Assembly: GCF_025716945.1 (NCBI RefSeq)
Contig: NZ_JAOVZT010000002.1
Coordinates: 426,419-490,418 of the forward strand
Length of the DNA: 64,000 nucleotides
Reading direction: 5' to 3'
Origin: Geodermatophilus sp. YIM 151500
GTDB lineage: Bacteria > Actinomycetota > Actinomycetes > Mycobacteriales > Geodermatophilaceae
Within the stretch, counting starts at the first letter, position 1; each line of letters opens with the position of its first letter. Under the pieces are notes generated by a model. The model was not told the DNA's origin. It saw nothing but the letters and a program-made list of their open reading frames with translations, and did not search any database. This document shows positions 2,919 to 33,556 of this stretch, one piece after another. The translations under genes and the position numbers were made by a program.

Positions 2919-4510
2919 GTGCACCCACCACCGAGCTGACCGGCCGCACCGCCGACGAGCTCGCCCGCCTGCTGTCGGCCGGCGAGGTGGCCGCCGCCGA
3001 CGTCACCCGGGCCTACCTCGACCGGATCGCGGCCGAGGACGGCGACCTCGGCGCCTACCTGCACGTCGACCCCGAGGCGGCGCAGGCGCAGGCCGCGGAG
3101 GTCGACTCCGCCCGCGCGGCCGGCACCGGGCTCGGCCCGCTGGCCGGCGTCCCGGTGGCGCTCAAGGACGTCGTGGTCACCGAGGGCGTGCCCACGACGA
3201 GCGGCTCGCGCATCCTCGAGGGTTGGCGCCCGCCCTACGACGCCACGGTCGCCGCCCGCCTCAAGGCGGCCCGCACCGTGCTGCTCGGCAAGACCAACAT
3301 GGACGAGTTCGCGATGGGATCGTCCACCGAGAACTCCGCCTACCGCCCCACCCGCAACCCCTGGGACCCGGCCCGCATCCCCGGCGGCTCGTCGGGCGGC
3401 TCCTCGGCCGCGGTCGCCGGCGGCCTGGCGCCGTGGGCGATCGGCACCGACACCGGCGGGTCGATCCGCCAGCCCGCCGCGCTCACCGGCCTGGTCGGGC
3501 ACAAGCCGACGTACGGCTCGGTGTCGCGCTACGGGTTGATCGCCTTCTCCTCCAGCCTCGACCAGGCCGGCCCGATGGCGCGCACCGTGCTCGACGCGGC
3601 CGTCCTGCACGAGGCCATCGGCGGCTACGACCCGTGCGACTCGACGAGCATCGACGCGCCGCTGCCGGTGCTGGCCGAGTCCGCCCGCCGCGGCGCGACC
3701 GGGGACCTGTCCGGCGTCCGGATCGGGGTGGTCCGCGAACTCGGCGGCGAGGGCCACGCCGAGGGGTACGAGCCGGGCGTGCTCGCCCGCGTCGCCGAGG
3801 CGGTCGCGCTGCTGGAGGGCCTGGGCGCGGAGGTGCGCGAGGTGTCCTGCCCCGCCTTCGACCTCGCGCTGGCGGCCTACTACCTCATCGCCCCCAGCGA
3901 GGCCTCGTCCAACCTGGCCCGCTTCGACGGCGTCCGCTACGGCCTGCGGGTCGGTGACGACGGCGAGCGCGACCTCGACGAGGTCATGGCGCTCACCCGC
4001 GAGCGCGGCTTCGGCCCGGAGGTCAAGCGGCGCATCGTCCTCGGCACCTACGCGCTGTCCAGCGGCTACTACGAGGCCTACTACGGGCAGGCGCAGAAGG
4101 TGCGCACGCTCATCAGCCACGACTTCGCCGAGGCGTTCGGGAGCTCCGCCGCCGGCGGGCCGGCCGGCGGCGGGCGCGACGCGGACGGCGGCACCGGGGG
4201 CGTCGACGTCCTGGTCAGCCCGACCACGCCGACCGTCGCCTTCCCCCTCGGCGCCCGCGTCGACGACCCGATCGCCATGTACGCCGCCGACCTGTGCACG
4301 CTGCCGGCCAGCCTCGCCGGCGTGCCGGCCATCTCGGTGCCCTGCGGGCTCTCCGACGGCCTGCCCGTGGGCCTCCAGATCATGGCGCCGGCCCTGGCGG
4401 ACGACCGCTGCTACCGCGTGGCCGCCGCGCTGGAGGCCGCCCAGGACGACGCCCGCGGCGCCCGCTTCCTCGACCAGCTCGCCGCGCGCACCGGCGCGGA
4501 GGCCCGGTGA
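2915..4510 (+). CDS. gatA: Aspartyl/glutamyl-tRNA amidotransferase subunit A
   Basis: The glutaminase/amidase subunit of GatCAB, releasing ammonia from glutamine for transfer in GatB. At 531 aa it carries the complete amidase-signature triad: Lys84 (PVALKDVV), cis-Ser159 ([16 protein letters not shown]) and nucleophile Ser183 ([13 protein letters not shown]). The spacings match the known family enzymes. A glycine/alanine-rich insertion near residues 409-428 ([20 protein letters not shown]) makes it longer than most homologues. The GTG start overlaps the gatC stop, and its own stop overlaps the start of the 65-aa membrane protein. It acts in the cytoplasm. Confidence 0.97.
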
Positions 4511-26040: not shown

Positions 26041-27189
26041 TCAGAGCCGGCCGCCGGTCTGCTCCAGGATCTGCCGCACCCGCTGCGTGGCCAGCTCGGT
26101 GTAGCGGTAGACGGCCGCTCGCGCCGCGTCGGCGTCCCCGCGCTCGACGCCCTCGGTGATGCCGCGCTGGGCCTCGATGAAGCTCTGCGAGGTCACCGGG
26201 GTGACGCCGAAGCTGCGCGTCATCACGCTCTTGATGTGCAGCTGGGCGAACGCCGTCGTCAGCGGGGCGCTGTGGGCCAGCGAGACCAGCGTCTCGTGGA
26301 AGGCGTAGTTGGCGTCCAGGTAGCCGTCGAAGTCGACGAAACGTTCGCCGACCAGCAGCGCCGCCATGGCCTCGAACCGGTGCCGCAGCTCGGCCACCTC
26401 CGCCTCGGGCACCCGGCCGACGACCATGTCGATGACGCCGAGCTCGATCGCGCAGCGGGCCGCGAACGTCTCGTCGGAGGTCCGCAGGTCGAAGGGCACG
26501 ACCACGTAGCCGCGCTCGGGGTCGCGGCGGACCAGCCCGTCGGCGGTCAGCCGGGTCAGGGCGTAGAACGCCGCCGGCTTGTCCACCCCGAGCGAGTAGG
26601 CGAGGTCGTCGAGGTGCAGCACGGCGTCCGGGGCGTACATCCGCTCCAGCACCTGCAACCGCGCCCGCTGGTAGACCTCGTCGTCGCGGGCGAACTCGAA
26701 GCGGCCGAATCCGCCGCGGAAGTAGGTCAGCGGGCTGCCCTCGTCGGCCTCGGCCGAGACCACCCGGCCGAGGAAGATCGTGTGCGTCGCGGCACCGACC
26801 TCCTCCACCACCTCGCACTCGATGCGCGCCAGGGCGTCGGACAGCACCGGCACCCCCAGCACCCCGCGGGCCACGCGGAGGCCGGCGAACTTGTCCGGGG
26901 CCGGCGAGGCGAACTGCTGGGCGAGGTGCCCCTGCCCCTGGCCCAGGACGTTGACCGCGTAGGCACCGGCCGAGGAGACCGCGGCGCAGGTCGTCGACGA
27001 CTTGTTGAGGCAGGCCAGCATCATCGGCGGGTCCAGCGACAGCGACGTCACCGAGCTCGCGGTCATGCCGAAGCGGCCCCGGTCGGTGCTCGTGGTCACC
27101 AGCGTCACGCCGCTGGCGAGGTGGCCGACCACGTGGCGGAACGTGGCCGCGTCGACCGGCGGGTCACCGGCCGTGCCGGGAGCAGTCAC
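26041..27189 (-). CDS. Flavin reductase fused to a GntR/FCD regulator
   Basis: A 382-aa protein with two complete modules. Residues 12-168 are a flavin reductase-like FMN-binding barrel (FRHVVGHLASGVTLVTT, GMTASSVTSLSLDPPMMLACLNKSSTT, FAVNVL-like AYAVNVLGQGQ, RIECEVVEEV..HTIFLGRVV). Residues 172-232 form a winged helix (ARLQVLERMYAPDAVLHLDDLAYSLGVDKPAAFYALTRLTADGLVRRD). Residues 237-375 form an FCD-like helical domain (LDANYAFHETLV, GITEGVERGDADAARAAV), whose usual EHR His is replaced (EAQRG). It is divergent from a luciferase-like monooxygenase, so it may supply reduced flavin and also regulate. The dual role is an inference. Confidence 0.85.
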   Translation of the reverse strand: MTAPGTAGDPPVDAATFRHVVGHLASGVTLVTTSTDRGRFGMTASSVTSLSLDPPMMLACLNKSSTTCAAVSSAGAYAVNVLGQGQGHLAQQFASPAPDKFAGLRVARGVLGVPVLSDALARIECEVVEEVGAATHTIFLGRVVSAEADEGSPLTYFRGGFGRFEFARDDEVYQRARLQVLERMYAPDAVLHLDDLAYSLGVDKPAAFYALTRLTADGLVRRDPERGYVVVPFDLRTSDETFAARCAIELGVIDMVVGRVPEAEVAELRHRFEAMAALLVGERFVDFDGYLDANYAFHETLVSLAHSAPLTTAFAQLHIKSVMTRSFGVTPVTSQSFIEAQRGITEGVERGDADAARAAVYRYTELATQRVRQILEQTGGRL

Positions 27190-27399
27190 GAGGAGGCCGT
27201 CCTTCCGCGAGGTGGCCCCGGCGCTGGGCCGGGTGCCGTCGGCGTCCAGTGAAGCGGCGTCCCGCCGCCGCGCGCGATGGCGGAGGCCGTCATCGCGGCC
27301 AGGTCAACTTCACGGCCGGCGACACTGCCTCGCGCGCCCGCGGGCCCTTGACTGGCCTCCGACCGATCGACGACGACGGTGGCCGACGAGGAGATCGCC

Positions 27400-28521
27400 G
27401 TGAGACTGGGCTACTTCGCCATGCCGATGCACCCGCAGGGCCGGACGTGGGCGGACACGCTGCGCGAGGACCGGGAGGCGGTGATCCTGGCCGACCGGCT
27501 GGCCTTCCACGACGCCTTCATCGGGGAGCACCTCACCGACCGCCACGAGAACATCACCAACAGCCTGCTGTTCCTGGCCACGCTGATCCCCGAGACCACG
27601 CAGATCAGGCTGGCCACCGGGACGACGAACCTGTCGCACATGCACCCGGCCCTGGTCGCGGTGAACAGCGCGATGTTCGACCACCTCTCCGGCGGCCGGT
27701 TCATCCTCGGCATCAGCCCGGGCGCGCTGCCCTCGGACGCCGAGCTGATCGGCATCCTCGGCCAGGACCGCAACGAGATCTTCGCCGAGGCCATCGACGT
27801 CATCACCCGGCTGTGGGAGCTCGACCCGCCCTACGACATCACCTCGCCCGGCGGGCGCTTCACGGTCACCACCGCGAGCACGTACGACGGCGACGTCGGC
27901 GTGGGCATCGTCGGCAAGCCGCTGCAGCAGCCGCGGCCGGAGATCGTGGGCACCGTGGTCGCCCCCTTCTCCAAGGGCGTCACCGCCATGGGGGCGCGCG
28001 ACTTCCACCCGCTCTCGGCGAACTTCCTGCTGCCGCAGTGGGTGGCCACCCACTGGCCCAACTACGTGGAGGGCCGGGAATCGGTGGGCGGCACGGCGTC
28101 GCCGGCCGACTGGCGCGTGGCGCGCACGGTCTTCGTCGCCGACGACGCATCGGTCGCCGAGGCCTACGGGCGGGCCGACGAGAACAGCCCGTACCGGTAC
28201 TACTACACGAAGATGCTCGGCAAGATGCGGGCGCTCGGCCGGCTGGGGCTGTTCAAGACCTCGCGGGAACAGCCCGACGAGGAGGTCACGCTCGACGGCG
28301 TCCTCGACGACCTGGTCATCACCGGCACGCCGGACTCGGTGGCCGAGCAGATCCTGGCGCTGCGCGAGCAGACCGGTGACTTCGGCGAGTTGGTCTACGC
28401 GGGGCTGGACTGGGTCGACCCCGAGCTGGCCCGGCGCTCGATGGAGCTGATGGCCACCAAGGTCATGCCCCAGGTCAACGACGCGCTCAAGTCTGGCGGC
28501 TCCGGGGCGGAGGACGCGTGA
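27400..28521 (+). CDS. Luciferase-like (LLM) flavin-dependent monooxygenase
   Basis: A 373-aa TIM-barrel monooxygenase using reduced FMN. It resembles limonene monooxygenase-type LLM proteins: MRLGYFAMPMHPQGRTW at the N-terminus, FIGEHLTDRHENITNSLLF, IRLATGTTNLSHMHPALVA, MFDHLSGGRFILGISPG, and VVAPFSKGVTAMGARDFHPLSANFL. GTG 27400 is chosen because GAGGAG lies 7 bases upstream; GTG 27379 would add seven residues. It starts a four-gene overlapping operon and is divergent from the flavin reductase-regulator fusion, its likely electron partner. The real substrate is unknown. Confidence 0.88.
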   Translation: MRLGYFAMPMHPQGRTWADTLREDREAVILADRLAFHDAFIGEHLTDRHENITNSLLFLATLIPETTQIRLATGTTNLSHMHPALVAVNSAMFDHLSGGRFILGISPGALPSDAELIGILGQDRNEIFAEAIDVITRLWELDPPYDITSPGGRFTVTTASTYDGDVGVGIVGKPLQQPRPEIVGTVVAPFSKGVTAMGARDFHPLSANFLLPQWVATHWPNYVEGRESVGGTASPADWRVARTVFVADDASVAEAYGRADENSPYRYYYTKMLGKMRALGRLGLFKTSREQPDEEVTLDGVLDDLVITGTPDSVAEQILALREQTGDFGELVYAGLDWVDPELARRSMELMATKVMPQVNDALKSGGSGAEDA

Positions 28522-29153
28522 GCGAGCTCGCGGGCGCGCGCACGGGCACCGCACCGCCGGCGAACGCGGCCGGGGGTCCGGACCGGCTGCCGCTGCCCCC
28601 CGACGACCAGCTCACCCCCGCGCAGCGGGACGCCGTCGCCGAGATCAGCTCCGGCCCGCGCGGCGGGGTGATCGGACCGTTCGCCCCGCTGCTGCGCAGC
28701 CCCGAGCTGATGACCCGGGTGCAGAAGGTGGGCGAGCACCTGCGCTTCGCCGGCGGCCTGGAGCGGCGGCTGTTCGAGATGGCCATCCTGTGGATCTCCC
28801 GCCGCTGGGACCAGCACTTCGAGTGGTCCTTCCACCACCCGCTGGCCCTGGAGGCCGGGCTCGAACCGGCCGTCGCCGACGCGATCGCGGCCGACCGGCG
28901 GCCGGAGGGGATGGACCCGGCCGCCGCGGCCGTCTGGGACCTGCTGGACGAGCTGCACCGGACCCGTGGCGTCTCCGACGCGACGTTCGACCGGGCGATG
29001 GCCGAGCTCGGCGACGCCGGGATCGTCGAGCTCGTCGTGACCGCCGGCTACTACACGACCCTGGCGATGGTCATGAACGTCGCCCGGACGCCGGTGCCCG
29101 GCGGGTCGACGCTGCCCGACCTCCGCGCCGCGGCCCCCGGGGGACGGGCATGA
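28518..29153 (+). CDS. Carboxymuconolactone decarboxylase-family protein
   Basis: A 211-aa helical protein of the CMD/AhpD superfamily (FAPLLRSPELMTRVQKVGEHLRFAGGLERRLFEMAILWISRRWDQHFEWSFHHPLALEAGL). It has no cysteine at all, so it cannot be an AhpD-type peroxidase. The W-Q-EW-H pattern matches gamma-carboxymuconolactone decarboxylase-like members. It overlaps the monooxygenase stop (GTGA) and the next start (ATGA), so it is translationally coupled. The reaction is unknown. Confidence 0.85.
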   Translation: MSELAGARTGTAPPANAAGGPDRLPLPPDDQLTPAQRDAVAEISSGPRGGVIGPFAPLLRSPELMTRVQKVGEHLRFAGGLERRLFEMAILWISRRWDQHFEWSFHHPLALEAGLEPAVADAIAADRRPEGMDPAAAAVWDLLDELHRTRGVSDATFDRAMAELGDAGIVELVVTAGYYTTLAMVMNVARTPVPGGSTLPDLRAAAPGGRA

Positions 29154-29935
29154 GCGGCCCGGCGCTGCCCGCCCCGGTCCTGCACCGGTCCGGTGACGGG
29201 CCGCCGGTGCTGATGCTGCACCCGCTGGGCGTCGACCACCGCTTCTGGGACGGCGTCGTCCCGGCGCTGCCCGGCTTCGAGGTGCTCACCTACGACTTCC
29301 CCGGCCACGGGGCGACGCCGGTGCCCGGGCAGCCCTACACGGTCGAGGACCTCGCCGACCAGGCCGCGGCGCTGCTGCGCGAGGCCGGTGCGGTGCCCGC
29401 CGACGTGGTCGGCGTCTCGCTCGGCGGCCTCGTCGCCCAGCGGCTGGCGGCCGGGGCACCGGACCTGGTGCGGCGGCTGGTCGTCGTCGACGCCGTGTCG
29501 GTCTACCCCGACCAGATGCGGCAGATGTGGCGCGAGCGCGCCGAGCGCGCTCCCCGCGAGGGCCTCGAGCCGTTCGTCGACCCGACGCTCGCCCTCTGGT
29601 TCACCGCCGGGCTGCTCGCCGAGGGCGGCCCGGTGGTCGAGCAGGCCCGCCGGGCCTTCCTCGCCGGGGACCCGGCCGGCTACGGCCTGGCCTGCCGCGC
29701 GCTGGAGGCCGCCGACCTCACCGGCGACGTCGGCCAGATCACCGCTCCCACGCTCGTGGTGTGCGGCGAGGACGACGCGCCGCCGTTCACCGCCGCCGCG
29801 CGCGAGCTCGCCGGGCAGCTCCCCGGTGCGCAGCTGGTCTGGCTGTCGCCGGCCCGGCACGCCGGCGTGCTGGAGCAGCCGGAGCAGTTCGCCACCGCGC
29901 TGCGCGGATTCCTGCGGTCGGGAGGTGCGGCGTGA
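29150..29935 (+). CDS. Alpha/beta hydrolase (enol-lactonase-like)
   Basis: A 261-aa single-domain alpha/beta hydrolase similar to 3-oxoadipate enol-lactonases. It has the oxyanion segment MLHPLGVDHRFWDG, the nucleophile elbow GVSLGG with Ser90, a probable acid in VVCGEDDAPPF and the catalytic His in SPARHAGVLEQP. No signal peptide is present. The start and stop overlap the neighbours by 4 bases. It likely hydrolyses an ester or lactone formed by the monooxygenase, by inference. Confidence 0.88.
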   Translation: MSGPALPAPVLHRSGDGPPVLMLHPLGVDHRFWDGVVPALPGFEVLTYDFPGHGATPVPGQPYTVEDLADQAAALLREAGAVPADVVGVSLGGLVAQRLAAGAPDLVRRLVVVDAVSVYPDQMRQMWRERAERAPREGLEPFVDPTLALWFTAGLLAEGGPVVEQARRAFLAGDPAGYGLACRALEAADLTGDVGQITAPTLVVCGEDDAPPFTAAARELAGQLPGAQLVWLSPARHAGVLEQPEQFATALRGFLRSGGAA

Positions 29936-30890: not shown

Positions 30891-32123
30891 TCAGGCGGCG
30901 CCGGCGAGCAACCGGTGCAGGCGCAGCGCGACCTGGACCTCGGTGCGCCGGTCGGCGAGCGGGTGGCCGAGGTACTCCTCGGCGCGGTGCAGCCGGTTGC
31001 GCACGGTGTGCTCGTGCAGCCCCAGGTGCTCGGCCACCGCGACGTGGCTGCCGAGGCGGGCGGAGGCCTCCAGCGTCTCGCGCAGCCGCTCGGCCTCCGG
31101 GGTCGCCTCGGCCAGGCCGCGCAGCTCGGCCTGCACGAAACGCCGGGCCCGCCCGGGGTCGCGCAGCAGCAGGATCTCCAGCGCGACGTCGGAGTGGGCC
31201 AGCACCCGCGGCGCGGACGCGGGGCCCCACGCCACCCGCACCCGCTCGACGTCCTCGGCCTGCCGGAAGGCCTCGCGGAAGCCGGCGATCCCCGCGTGCG
31301 GGTCGCTCACCGATGCTGCGACGCCGCTGGCGACCAGCCCCTCGCGCAGGCGGTCGAGGAGGTCCCCGGACCAGCCGGTGGGCGAGGTCAGCCAGACGGC
31401 GGTGCGGGTCAGGTCGAGCGGGTGGACCAGGCTCTGCCGCACGGTCGTCCGCGCCCGCAGCCCGAGCAGCAGCTGGCCGGCGGCGCCCTCGGCGATCCGG
31501 GGCAGCAGGACGGCGACGTGGTGGGCGGCCAGGTCGTGGTCGAGCGTGATCAGGTCCGACGGGGCGAGCGACGCCGGGTCGCCGCGCAGGATCTCGCGGA
31601 CCAGGCCCTGCCGGACGTGGGCGCGCGAGCGGCTGAGCGCGTCGTCGACCCGCGCGTAGTTCTCCGCGACCTGGGAGGCGACGTGGTCCTGGTAGCCGAG
31701 GATCGCGCCGGTCAGGTCGGCCAGGGCGCGGAGCGCCTCGTCGCGGGGAACGTCCCGCTCGGCGGCCACCGCGCACAGCCGGGCCGCCCAGGCCTCCCAC
31801 ATCGTGCCGAAGCCCACCCGGTAGGAGCGCTGCAGGGCGGTCTGCGGAACGCGCAGCTCGGCCTGCACGCGGGCGAACTCCAGCGGCTGCTCGAGCCGGA
31901 CCGCGGCCAGCGGCAACCGGCCGGTGAGCACCTGCTGCAGGAGCGCCAGGTTCTCCCGGACGCTGGAGCGCAGCGCCTCGGCGAAACCGCCGTCGGTGGC
32001 CAGGTCGGGGAAGGCGACGGAGATGTCGCGGGCCACCACCCGCTCGCAGAGCTCGTCGAGGTCGACGCCGGACGCCGTCTCCCGCACCCAGCCGGGCAGC
32101 GGAGCGGGGCGGTCGGGGTCCAT
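30891..32123 (-). CDS. PucR-family transcriptional regulator
   Basis: A 410-aa CdaR/PucR-type regulator. The N-terminal half (residues 1-190) is a helical sensor-like region (VDLDELCERVVARDISVAFPDL, LQRSYRVGFGTMWEAW). A GGDEF-like middle follows, and the C-terminal PucR helix-turn-helix (residues about 350-405: ETLEASARLGSHVAVAEHLGLHEHTVRNRLHRAEEYLG) is clear. It is divergent from an FAD monooxygenase gene cluster that it may control. Family members often respond to purine, amino acid or aromatic metabolites; its ligand is unknown. Confidence 0.9.
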   Translation of the reverse strand: MDPDRPAPLPGWVRETASGVDLDELCERVVARDISVAFPDLATDGGFAEALRSSVRENLALLQQVLTGRLPLAAVRLEQPLEFARVQAELRVPQTALQRSYRVGFGTMWEAWAARLCAVAAERDVPRDEALRALADLTGAILGYQDHVASQVAENYARVDDALSRSRAHVRQGLVREILRGDPASLAPSDLITLDHDLAAHHVAVLLPRIAEGAAGQLLLGLRARTTVRQSLVHPLDLTRTAVWLTSPTGWSGDLLDRLREGLVASGVAASVSDPHAGIAGFREAFRQAEDVERVRVAWGPASAPRVLAHSDVALEILLLRDPGRARRFVQAELRGLAEATPEAERLRETLEASARLGSHVAVAEHLGLHEHTVRNRLHRAEEYLGHPLADRRTEVQVALRLHRLLAGAA

Positions 32124-32302: not shown

Positions 32303-33556
32303 GTGACCGCCGCGGTCGCCGGCGGCACCGCCCGGGAGACGCTGCCCGCGGACCGGCGTCCGCGGGTGGCGGTGCTCGGCGGGTCGCTGATCGGGCTGAC
32401 CACCGCGCTCGTCCTCCGCGACATCGGCTGCGACGTCGACGTCTTCGAGCGCTCGCGCAGCCCGCTCGAGGGCCGCGGCGTCGGCATCGTGCTGCACCCG
32501 GCGACGGTCCGCTACCTGCTCGACAACCGGTTGCTCGACCTGTCGGCGGTGAGCACCACGGCGGCCTGGCACCGGTACCTGGACGTCGACGGGTCGGTGC
32601 TGGCGCAGGCCGCCCGGCGGCACCACTTCACCGGGTACAACACGCTCTACGGCACGCTGCTGCAGACCTTCGGCCGCGACCGTTACCACCTCGGCGCGGA
32701 GGCGACCGGGGTGCGGGACGACGGCGACCGGGTCGAGGTCGCCTTCGCCGACGGCCGCACGGCGACCGCCGACCTGCTCGTCGGCGCCGACGGCGTCTCC
32801 TCCTTCGTCCGGCGCACGATGCTCCCCGGGGTGCGGCCCGGCTACGGGGGTTACGTGGCCTGGCGCGGGGTCGTCGACGAGCGGGAGCTGGCACCGGAGA
32901 CCTTCGCCGCGCTCGACGACGCGCTGACCTACCACGTGCAGCCGCACACGCACGTGCTCACCTACCCGATCCCGCACTACGACGGCGGGGTGGCGCCGGG
33001 GCGGCGGTTGATGAACGTCGTCTGGTACCGCAACGTGGCCGAGGGCCGCCCGCTCGACGAGCTGCTCACCGACCGGGAGGGCCGGCGGCGGGACGTCTCG
33101 CTGCCACCCGGCGCGGCGCGGGACGAGGTGGTCGCGGAGGTGCGGTCGACGGCGGCCGCGACGCTCCCGCCGCCCATCGCCGAGGTCGTGGTGAAGAACG
33201 AGGCCCCGTTCCTGCAGGTGATGGTCGACGTCGACGTGCCGCGCATGGCGTTCGGCCGGACCTGCCTGGTGGGGGACGCGGCGTTCGCCGTCCGACCGCA
33301 CGCCGCCGCGGCGACCGCCAAGGGCGCCGAGGACGTCTGGGCGCTGGCCGACGCGCTGCTGCGCGCGGGCGGCGACGTGCCCGCCGCGCTGGCCGCGTGG
33401 GAACCGGCCCGGCTCGAGGTGGGTCGGGCCCTGCTGGCCCGAACCCGCGAGCTCGGCGAGGGCGCCCAGTTCCGCAACGACTGGGTGCCCGGCGACCCGG
33501 CGCTCACCTTCGGGCTGCACCGGCCGGGCGACTCCGCCGACATGAGGGTGTCGTGA
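32303..33556 (+). CDS. FAD-dependent aromatic monooxygenase (2,6-dihydroxypyridine hydroxylase-like)
   Basis: A 417-aa class A flavoprotein hydroxylase. It has the FAD Rossmann motif VAVLGGSLIGLTTALVLRDIGCDVDVFERS (residues 22-51), LLVGADGVSSFVRRTMLPG and the GD motif CLVGDAAFAVRPHAAAATAKGAEDV. The sequence LEGRGVGIVLHPATVRYLL and YGGYVAWRGVV suggest the dihydroxypyridine hydroxylase branch, but this is from memory of family patterns. The GTG start has no strong ribosome site. It is followed by a cyclase-family hydrolase and an SDR, consistent with an aromatic or heterocyclic pathway. Confidence 0.88.
   Translation: MTAAVAGGTARETLPADRRPRVAVLGGSLIGLTTALVLRDIGCDVDVFERSRSPLEGRGVGIVLHPATVRYLLDNRLLDLSAVSTTAAWHRYLDVDGSVLAQAARRHHFTGYNTLYGTLLQTFGRDRYHLGAEATGVRDDGDRVEVAFADGRTATADLLVGADGVSSFVRRTMLPGVRPGYGGYVAWRGVVDERELAPETFAALDDALTYHVQPHTHVLTYPIPHYDGGVAPGRRLMNVVWYRNVAEGRPLDELLTDREGRRRDVSLPPGAARDEVVAEVRSTAAATLPPPIAEVVVKNEAPFLQVMVDVDVPRMAFGRTCLVGDAAFAVRPHAAAATAKGAEDVWALADALLRAGGDVPAALAAWEPARLEVGRALLARTRELGEGAQFRNDWVPGDPALTFGLHRPGDSADMRVS

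Follow-up and report, generated by a model that had tools for sequence, protein, structure and literature searches.

Why would a flavin reductase end in what looks like a complete GntR/FCD transcription regulator, and what would such a protein do beside a monooxygenase gene? The question is raised by an open frame of 382 aa on the minus strand (26041-27189) of a 64,000-nucleotide stretch of Geodermatophilus sp. YIM 151500 (the window, to which all coordinates without a prefix refer). An earlier note on this DNA had proposed that the protein may both feed the divergently encoded monooxygenase and sense flavin redox state or product to control it, and knew of no characterised example of the architecture.

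Architecture and recurrence of the fusion

The frame is a single one, correctly placed by the earlier note, and a Pfam domain search finds within it all three of the domains which that note had described. Residues 22-163 (26701-27126, minus strand) constitute a complete flavin reductase domain (Flavin_Reduct, PF01613; 152.3 bits against a cut-off of 27, covering profile positions 2-151 of 153), which superposes on 8ct0 in VIA-align (Z 20.9, rmsd 2.2, 140 residues aligned). It is followed by a GntR-type winged helix at residues 170-230 (26500-26682, minus strand), with the recognition helix DKPAAFYALTRL, and by an FCD domain at residues 240-363 (26101-26472, minus strand; 58.8 bits, cut-off 24.3). 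The GntR match of 27.1 bits is barely above its cut-off of 27, as is that of the IclR helix-turn-helix profile on the same protein (22.1 against 22), and the MarR profile falls under its own (18.4 against 24.6); we call the winged helix GntR-type also because it stands ahead of the FCD domain, in the order seen in GntR/FCD regulators, and because a relative of the protein (L062) scores 49.5 GntR bits. In the predicted model (pLDDT 79, pTM 0.51, with domain packing uncertain), this segment is indeed predicted as a winged helix, and VIA-align matches the C-terminal half to GntR/FCD folds throughout (Z about 18, rmsd 4-5, 200-207 aligned): residues 167-378 superpose on the whole GntR/FCD regulator 9isw (Z 18.1, rmsd 4.6, 205 aligned), and residues 167-382 on 3fms (Z 18.0, rmsd 4.3, 203 aligned). 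Profile and fold matches thus bear out the assignment of this half to a GntR winged helix and an FCD domain.

The survey of this architecture that the earlier note had suggested finds it at 22 loci of other actinobacterial genomes, with 57-86% identity, among Geodermatophilaceae, Pseudonocardia, Plantactinospora, Acrocarpospora, Nocardioides, Mycobacterium and others. Species genomes were scanned once with exact peptide patterns, which gave 23 loci; one of them, from a betaproteobacterium (L023), proved to have a plain GntR-type match only and was removed. Five further loci (L025-L029) repeat L001, L002, L020, L003, and L005, respectively, and were excluded from the counts together with L024, which is the window itself. 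At 20 of the 22 loci (L001-L020), a single match spans at least residues 17-378. L022 starts at a contig edge, where the C-terminal half only is visible, and in Acrocarpospora pleiomorpha (L021:2028-3141), on a 7.5-kb contig without an LLM gene, the frame is broken into two pieces. The fusion is present at 76% identity or more in six of 112 genomes of the family, and in five of 396 genomes sampled across the phylum, our own genome included (E up to 1e-45); plasmid matches that reach beyond the reductase domain derive from Dietzia, Arthrobacter, and Pseudarthrobacter, among the matches listed (25 of 43 records). Codon comparison of 11 close pairs gave dN/dS of 0.06-0.40 in the reductase, winged helix and FCD domains, and two distant pairs gave 0.41-0.68, for which the very high G+C probably causes synonymous change to be underestimated.

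Monooxygenase partners and a candidate operator

The divergent neighbor (27379-28521, plus strand) is an LLM-class protein, as the earlier note had it (Bac_luciferase, PF00296, 121.7 bits), and among solved structures it is closest to 3,6-diketocamphane monooxygenase (88 bits), an FMNH2 enzyme; it is the likely user of the reduced flavin. Genes for a carboxymuconolactone-decarboxylase-like (CMD) protein (28518-29153, plus strand), conserved at 20 of the 22 loci, and for a PcaD-like alpha/beta hydrolase (29150-29935, plus strand; 194 bits against the PcaD cut-off of 256), likewise a conserved partner, lie downstream, and a PucR-type regulator gene (30891-32123, minus strand) is shared with 19 of the 22 loci. 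At 19 of the 22 loci, an LLM gene is no more than about 5 kb away from the fusion, the others being L010 and L022, at contig edges, and L021, on its short contig; moreover, the six of 112 family genomes that have the fusion are precisely those with an LLM orthologue (E up to 1e-100). This association spans three gene orders: the divergent order of the window recurs in L001-L006, L012, and L020; the two genes are about 4 kb apart with the PucR gene between them in L007-L009, L011, L014, L015, and L017-L019, joined in L014, and identified there only, by a gene for a Gfo/Idh oxidoreductase; and L013 and L016 have a single LLM-CMD-hydrolase-fusion operon.

The window cluster further encodes a FAD monooxygenase close to 2,6-dihydroxypyridine hydroxylase (32303-33556, plus strand; 2vou, 281 bits), allantoinase/dihydropyrimidinase-like and asparaginase-like enzymes, a PF04199 cyclase-type protein, and an NMT1-type transport gene. 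The hydroxylase-like, amidohydrolase and asparaginase-like genes hint at a role of the cluster in N-heterocycle catabolism, which its predicted content suggests.

More distant full-length relatives of the fusion (41-46% identity) are found in three genomes (G010, G058, and G089), and in all three the fusion lies 3.7-4.7 kb from a homologue of CphC, an HpaB-type monooxygenase, of 82-88% identity. In each of these chlorophenol-type (cph-type) clusters, a gene for a BTAD/MalT-type regulator (59-63%) also lies no more than 1.2 kb from the fusion and a maleylacetate reductase homologue is present; two of the three have a hydroxyquinol-type dioxygenase homologue as well. In G152 and G497 the fusion adjoins a distant HpaB-type gene (27%; HpaB_N about 300 bits each), and in G484 an LLM gene of 25% identity is 2 kb away; beside the fusions of G369 and of a Dietzia lutea plasmid, where a transposase gene lies upstream, no partner monooxygenase was recognized with the queries used. 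Wherever a partner is recognized, the fusion therefore accompanies one or other of two unrelated monooxygenase folds, as a reductase component would. Taken with its tie to the LLM gene, this genomic context makes it most likely that the fusion is the reductase component of a two-component monooxygenase; in the window, it would be an NAD(P)H:flavin reductase component, and the divergent LLM enzyme would be the oxygenase that uses the reduced flavin.

A shorter relative is WP_012623561.1 of Pseudarthrobacter chlorophenolicus A6 (L065:7968-8747, plus strand, on pACHL02), which we presume, from strain, plasmid and gene order, to be CphB. This protein of 259 aa is annotated only as a flavin reductase; a winged helix follows the reductase domain (GntR 21.7 bits, under the cut-off), and there is no FCD domain.

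Upstream of the LLM gene, between it and the fusion, lies a conserved box, GAAnTTCACnGnnnnCGnCACTG (27306-27329, plus strand), which is a candidate operator. The window contains it once without mismatch; with up to three mismatches it occurs at four places against a shuffle mean of 1.55, so that we attach weight to the perfect match alone. A matrix derived from 15 boxes, with which the window was scanned from 15000 to 45000, scores at least 23 bits in the window and in 17 of the 20 loci L001-L020. Boxes outside the matrix score 26.3 (L004), 23.1 (L010, upstream of the fusion), and 23.7 bits (L017), and reversed sequences of 11 loci yield 8.8 at most. L013 and L016, in which the fusion shares one operon with the monooxygenase, have no box above 11 bits, nor do the cph-type loci L062-L064, L068, or the Ben locus described below. 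Second boxes, likewise outside the matrix, occur upstream of the fusion in L008 (26.3 bits), L011 (27.1), L019 (21.5), L014 (17.7, the highest score of that locus), L007 (16.9), L018 (16.2), L017 (14.8), and L015 (14.4), where those of L014-L019 face the gene divergent from the fusion; in L009, no box above 11 bits was found upstream of the fusion. The presence of the box upstream of both genes makes it probable that the fusion and the monooxygenase share transcription control, for which the PucR-type regulator is, on presence only, the best candidate in the cluster. A weaker box, of 12-18 bits, is found on the other strand (near 2930-3010, minus) upstream of the LLM gene in L014, L015, and L017-L019; that of L014 precedes a substrate-binding-protein-like gene (Phosphonate-bd 23.3 bits, under the cut-off), as if uptake belonged to the same regulon.

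Recognition helix, FCD pocket and competing readings

Might the fusion itself bind this box? A single protein could reduce flavin and bind the divergent promoter, with the state of the flavin or the substrate deciding which it does. The divergent order with the conserved box between the genes, as in the window and the eight loci that share its order (L001-L006, L012, and L020), would suit such a protein, as would the boxes of 14-27 bits upstream of separated fusions (L007, L008, L010, L011, L014, L015, and L017-L019) and the predicted winged helix. The box shows no clear palindrome, its best mean match being 0.42, and no clear direct repeat either (0.41, at 12 bp), and no perfect 6+6 inverted repeat is common to the intergenic regions of eight divergent loci, the window included. 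We do not count the lack of a palindrome against DNA binding, because the GntR/FCD protein NanR is described as binding direct repeats (PMC8012715). Against control by the fusion stand the separate PucR-type gene at 19 of the 22 loci, and the lack of any box above 11 bits both in the cph-type loci and in the two loci where fusion and monooxygenase form one operon.

The recognition helix also bears on this question. Our comparison used 22 LLM-clade alignment rows (the window, L001-L020, and L022) and the FCD proteins of our own genome, in which 13 matches comprise the window protein, a Ben fusion that lacks a winged helix (L053), and 11 proteins with a winged helix. The last 11 were taken as regulators and serve as controls; L053 was left out of the winged-helix counts and retained in the histidine counts, for which there are hence 12 controls. 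Two alignment positions, which we equate with Arg69 and Arg73 of NanR by way of the family motif, are informative. At the second, all 22 LLM-clade rows have Phe (Phe208 in the window protein), and all 11 regulators have Arg, which elsewhere is absent from the three cph-type rows (Phe) and from the presumed CphB, and is present in one of five other fusions. Arg73 of NanR is proposed as a base contact, at a resolution too low for single base contacts to be assigned (PMC8012715). The Arg69 position has Arg in nine of the 11 regulators, and in the LLM clade K (8), R (7), Q (2), P (2), A (2), or G (1), so that 15 of 22 rows are basic there, a feature more congenial to DNA binding; no row among the 31 for fusions or CphB has both Arg residues, as against nine of 11 regulators. 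Two standalone regulators that appear genuine, L123 and L124, read SRSPVHQ and SRSPVHH in this region, with His at the Arg73 position. Loss of that Arg therefore need not abolish DNA binding, and the position alone cannot settle the matter. Net charge of the winged helix was rejected as a discriminator, since the range in the LLM clade (-4 to +1) overlaps that of the 11 regulators (-2 to +7), and position 192, a candidate third DNA contact, was set aside because its alignment to NanR is unsure.

On balance, we regard the dual enzyme and DNA-binding protein as unlikely, and favor a reductase that is gated by its C-terminal half. Of the earlier proposal, a tie to the LLM monooxygenase is supported (19 of 22 loci, and the same six of 112 genomes), and transcription control is weakened by the loss of the base-contact Arg in 22 of 22 rows, by the PucR gene at 19 of 22 loci, and by the BTAD/MalT-type gene in all three cph-type clusters.

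Metal binding is not known to be universal among FCD regulators, so that the metal site does not decide whether a protein is one; in the FCD domain of the window protein the corresponding positions are N294, H298, Q341, and Y363. Where metal is bound, three His are described as ligands (His134/174/196 in TM0439, His148/196/218 in LldR), and citrate binding by CitO is said to require the metal (PMC4746285). The last two of these His are 22 residues apart in TM0439 and LldR, which is the spacing of Q341 and Y363. H298 is kept, and Gln341 and Tyr363 replace the other two His in 22 of 22 LLM-clade rows, so the earlier statement that the domain lacks one usual metal His must be amended to two of three. 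His is present at both positions in all three cph-type rows, in four and five of five other fusions, and in 12 and 11 of the 12 controls (the Ben row included), at the Q341 and Y363 positions, respectively; in addition, R325, S326, and F327 are invariant in all 22 LLM-clade rows. As these positions of the pocket were altered jointly and have not varied since, the pattern looks more like a change of ligand than like decay, and we read the Gln/Tyr swap as changed ligand chemistry in the LLM branch.

This pattern also bears on a second alternative, that the winged helix and FCD domain sense nothing, and only dimerize or dock the reductase to the monooxygenase. FCD domains do dimerize in regulators, which accords with a purely structural role. 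Similarly, CphB is described as a working reductase component (PMC6205950), and as the presumed CphB has no FCD domain, such a domain would be unnecessary for a reductase of this kind. A passenger would, however, hardly be expected to hold Q341, Y363, R325, S326, and F327 fixed in 22 of 22 rows, when the cph-type and Ben FCD domains keep the metal His, and we think a purely structural role quite improbable. Finally, to the idea that a sequencing or assembly error joined two genes, which the earlier note had itself raised, we give practically no credence: nothing in its support was found beyond the one locus of 22 (L021) in which the frame is broken, and the identical join, with a linker conserved across loci, recurs in numerous separate genomes, which refutes an artefact.

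We thus return to the gated reductase, which we consider somewhat more probable than otherwise, by analogy and from sequence comparison: a reductase, partnered with an LLM enzyme, whose supply of reduced flavin is governed by a captured, regulator-derived effector domain that no longer acts as a repressor. The C-terminal half would be a whole GntR/FCD regulator captured by the reductase, and its repressor function would have been lost in the LLM lineage. Its FCD pocket may bind a substrate or intermediate of the pathway, and the winged helix might serve as the joint that passes the signal to the reductase domain; ligand would then release autoinhibition, which would confine the production of reduced flavin to times when a compound for oxidation is present, and transcription would be left to a separate regulator, of PucR type in the window cluster. 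The sequences show the fusion and its conservation, the linkage to the monooxygenase, the lost base-contact Arg, the altered metal site, and the kinship with CphB-type reductases; that the protein reduces flavin, binds an effector, is gated in this direction, and has lost DNA binding is what we infer. The conserved box between the genes, and the fusions of G369 and the Dietzia plasmid without a recognized partner, count against this reading. Flavin reductases that run without substrate waste NADH and produce peroxide, and gating consequently matters in practice for degradation pathways and biocatalysis. The nearest precedent with a known mechanism is HPAH C1 of A. baumannii, whose C-terminal MarR domain is reported to bind the substrate and relieve self-inhibition, accelerating flavin reduction at least 30-fold, a stimulation presented as uncommon among flavin-dependent monooxygenases (PMC10816480). 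FAD-type HpaC reductases are reported to lack substrate regulation (PMC6165268), from which it follows that a bare reductase needs no gating.

FCD domains on oxygenase reductases and comparison with known systems

A second oxygenase reductase of the same genome carries an FCD domain (L073:6097-8886, plus strand, on contig C49). This BenC-FCD-BenD protein is encoded behind benA (BenA 802 against a cut-off of 781) in one frame of 929 aa; it passes the NCBIfam cut-offs for BenC (468.6 against 430) and BenD (422.4 against 380), and between the two, at residues 524-648, lies the FCD domain (57.0 bits). Such fusions occur in 13 of 112 family genomes, our own included, with 73-91% identity in the others, and, with the architecture judged by eye, in two genomes from the same order outside the family (L118 and L119). 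In G119, an FCD domain (66.1 bits) stands at the end of a BenC-like reductase (L131:8028-9635, minus strand), encoded behind a BenA that passes its cut-off, and the dehydrogenase has an adjoining gene of its own, which indicates that the FCD domain belongs with the reductase.

A profile built from the enzyme-fused FCD domains (A2), for which the gap below strong matches is partly built in, gave 22 matches of 173-222 bits in the 112 genomes, all of them enzymes (nine flavin reductases and 13 Ben fusions). Below the gap, with E values up to 1e-12 allowed, are 28 matches of at most 65.8 bits, of which 25 fall in frames of 226-289 aa and the other three in frames of 388-447 aa; the best of the 28 (L106) is an ordinary 253-aa GntR/FCD protein. 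Among the 396 phylum genomes, at 1e-15, the profile found 13 matches: five flavin reductase fusions, four Ben-type proteins, three regulators (L123, 89 bits; L124, 74; L127, 60), and L126. Owing to these regulators, the subtype is not strictly confined to enzymes beyond the family. L123 (L129:7898-8554, minus strand) has ordinary GntR (67.4 bits) and FCD (76.4 bits) matches; at this locus and at L130 (near 7947, minus strand), the standalone regulators nearest the enzyme-fused subtype lie upstream of a mutase-like gene, as judged by eye. Trees give a separate view: in one with the 11 own-genome regulators, the enzyme FCD domains form one clade (99/98), and in a tree with 24 regulators, L123 and L124 fall among the enzyme rows, in a clade of 24 rows (97/99). 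We therefore abandoned an exclusive enzyme clade, and a single enzyme origin of the subtype is neither supported nor rejected in the larger tree (p-AU 0.45). The LLM clade was thinned by 10 and 14 of its 22 rows in the two trees, respectively, from which L112, L126 (frame not recovered), and CphB (no FCD) are also absent; ten of the 13 added regulators are labelled by frame length, and the whole frame was seen only for L106, L107, L123, L124, and L127.

More broadly, and tentatively, since we hold it slightly short of an even chance, these comparisons may point to a distinct lineage of FCD domains in Actinomycetota, nearly confined to enzymes and captured from a GntR regulator, which serves as a substrate-sensing gate of flavin reductases (with LLM or HpaB-type partners) and of BenC, and in which the pocket of the LLM branch would have passed from N/H/H/H to a metal-free N/H/Q/Y. 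If so, one type of sensor would gate the electron supply of oxygenases that are themselves unrelated, the capture of sensor domains for gating would look like a recurring solution and a source of natural plug-in switches, and some 'GntR/FCD' matches would be enzyme parts and not regulators.

Neither an FCD-type flavin reductase fusion nor the BenC-FCD parallel was found in print, in a search that missed most subscription journals. Within our searches, the earlier note's claim that no example is characterized accordingly holds for the version with an FCD domain; reductases with a C-terminal helix-turn-helix have, however, been described (PMC6205950), and HPAH C1 is an analogue whose mechanism is known (PMC10816480).

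Among the closest known systems is the presumed CphB, which is 44.8% identical to the window protein over residues 12-232. It too has a winged helix behind the flavin reductase domain and belongs to a two-component monooxygenase cluster in which a gene of its own encodes the regulator; it differs in lacking the FCD domain and in having an HpaB-type partner rather than an LLM enzyme. The report on a Rhodococcus chlorophenol cluster describes such reductases as having a C-terminal helix-turn-helix, names the 4-chlorophenol, 4-fluorophenol, and 4-nitrophenol systems, and mentions that cphC-I and cphB were expressed and the enzymes characterized (PMC6205950). NphA2 of the 4-nitrophenol monooxygenase is, from statements in these papers rather than from sequence, a CphB-type reductase as well, for which NphR1 is the proposed regulator (PMC6328493). 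The Ben fusion bears the same FCD subtype on an oxygenase reductase of the same genome, but belongs to the 2Fe-2S/FAD/NAD reductase of a Rieske dioxygenase, keeps its metal His, and has no winged helix that we found. The regulators TM0439, LldR, NanR, and CitO share the winged helix and FCD fold across residues 167-382, whereas in the window protein one base-contact Arg is lost, two metal His are replaced, and the whole is fused behind an enzyme. HPAH C1 (AbHpaC of Acinetobacter baumannii; 5zyr/5zc2) is the first Foldseek PDB match of the model by E-value (5zyr; 269 columns, TM 0.33/0.41, rmsd 13), although VIA-align superposes it on the reductase part only (residues 24-166). Like the window protein, it joins a flavin reductase to a C-terminal domain of regulator type, which is of the MarR type in C1 and of the GntR type with FCD here, and the two proteins also differ in partner and substrate.
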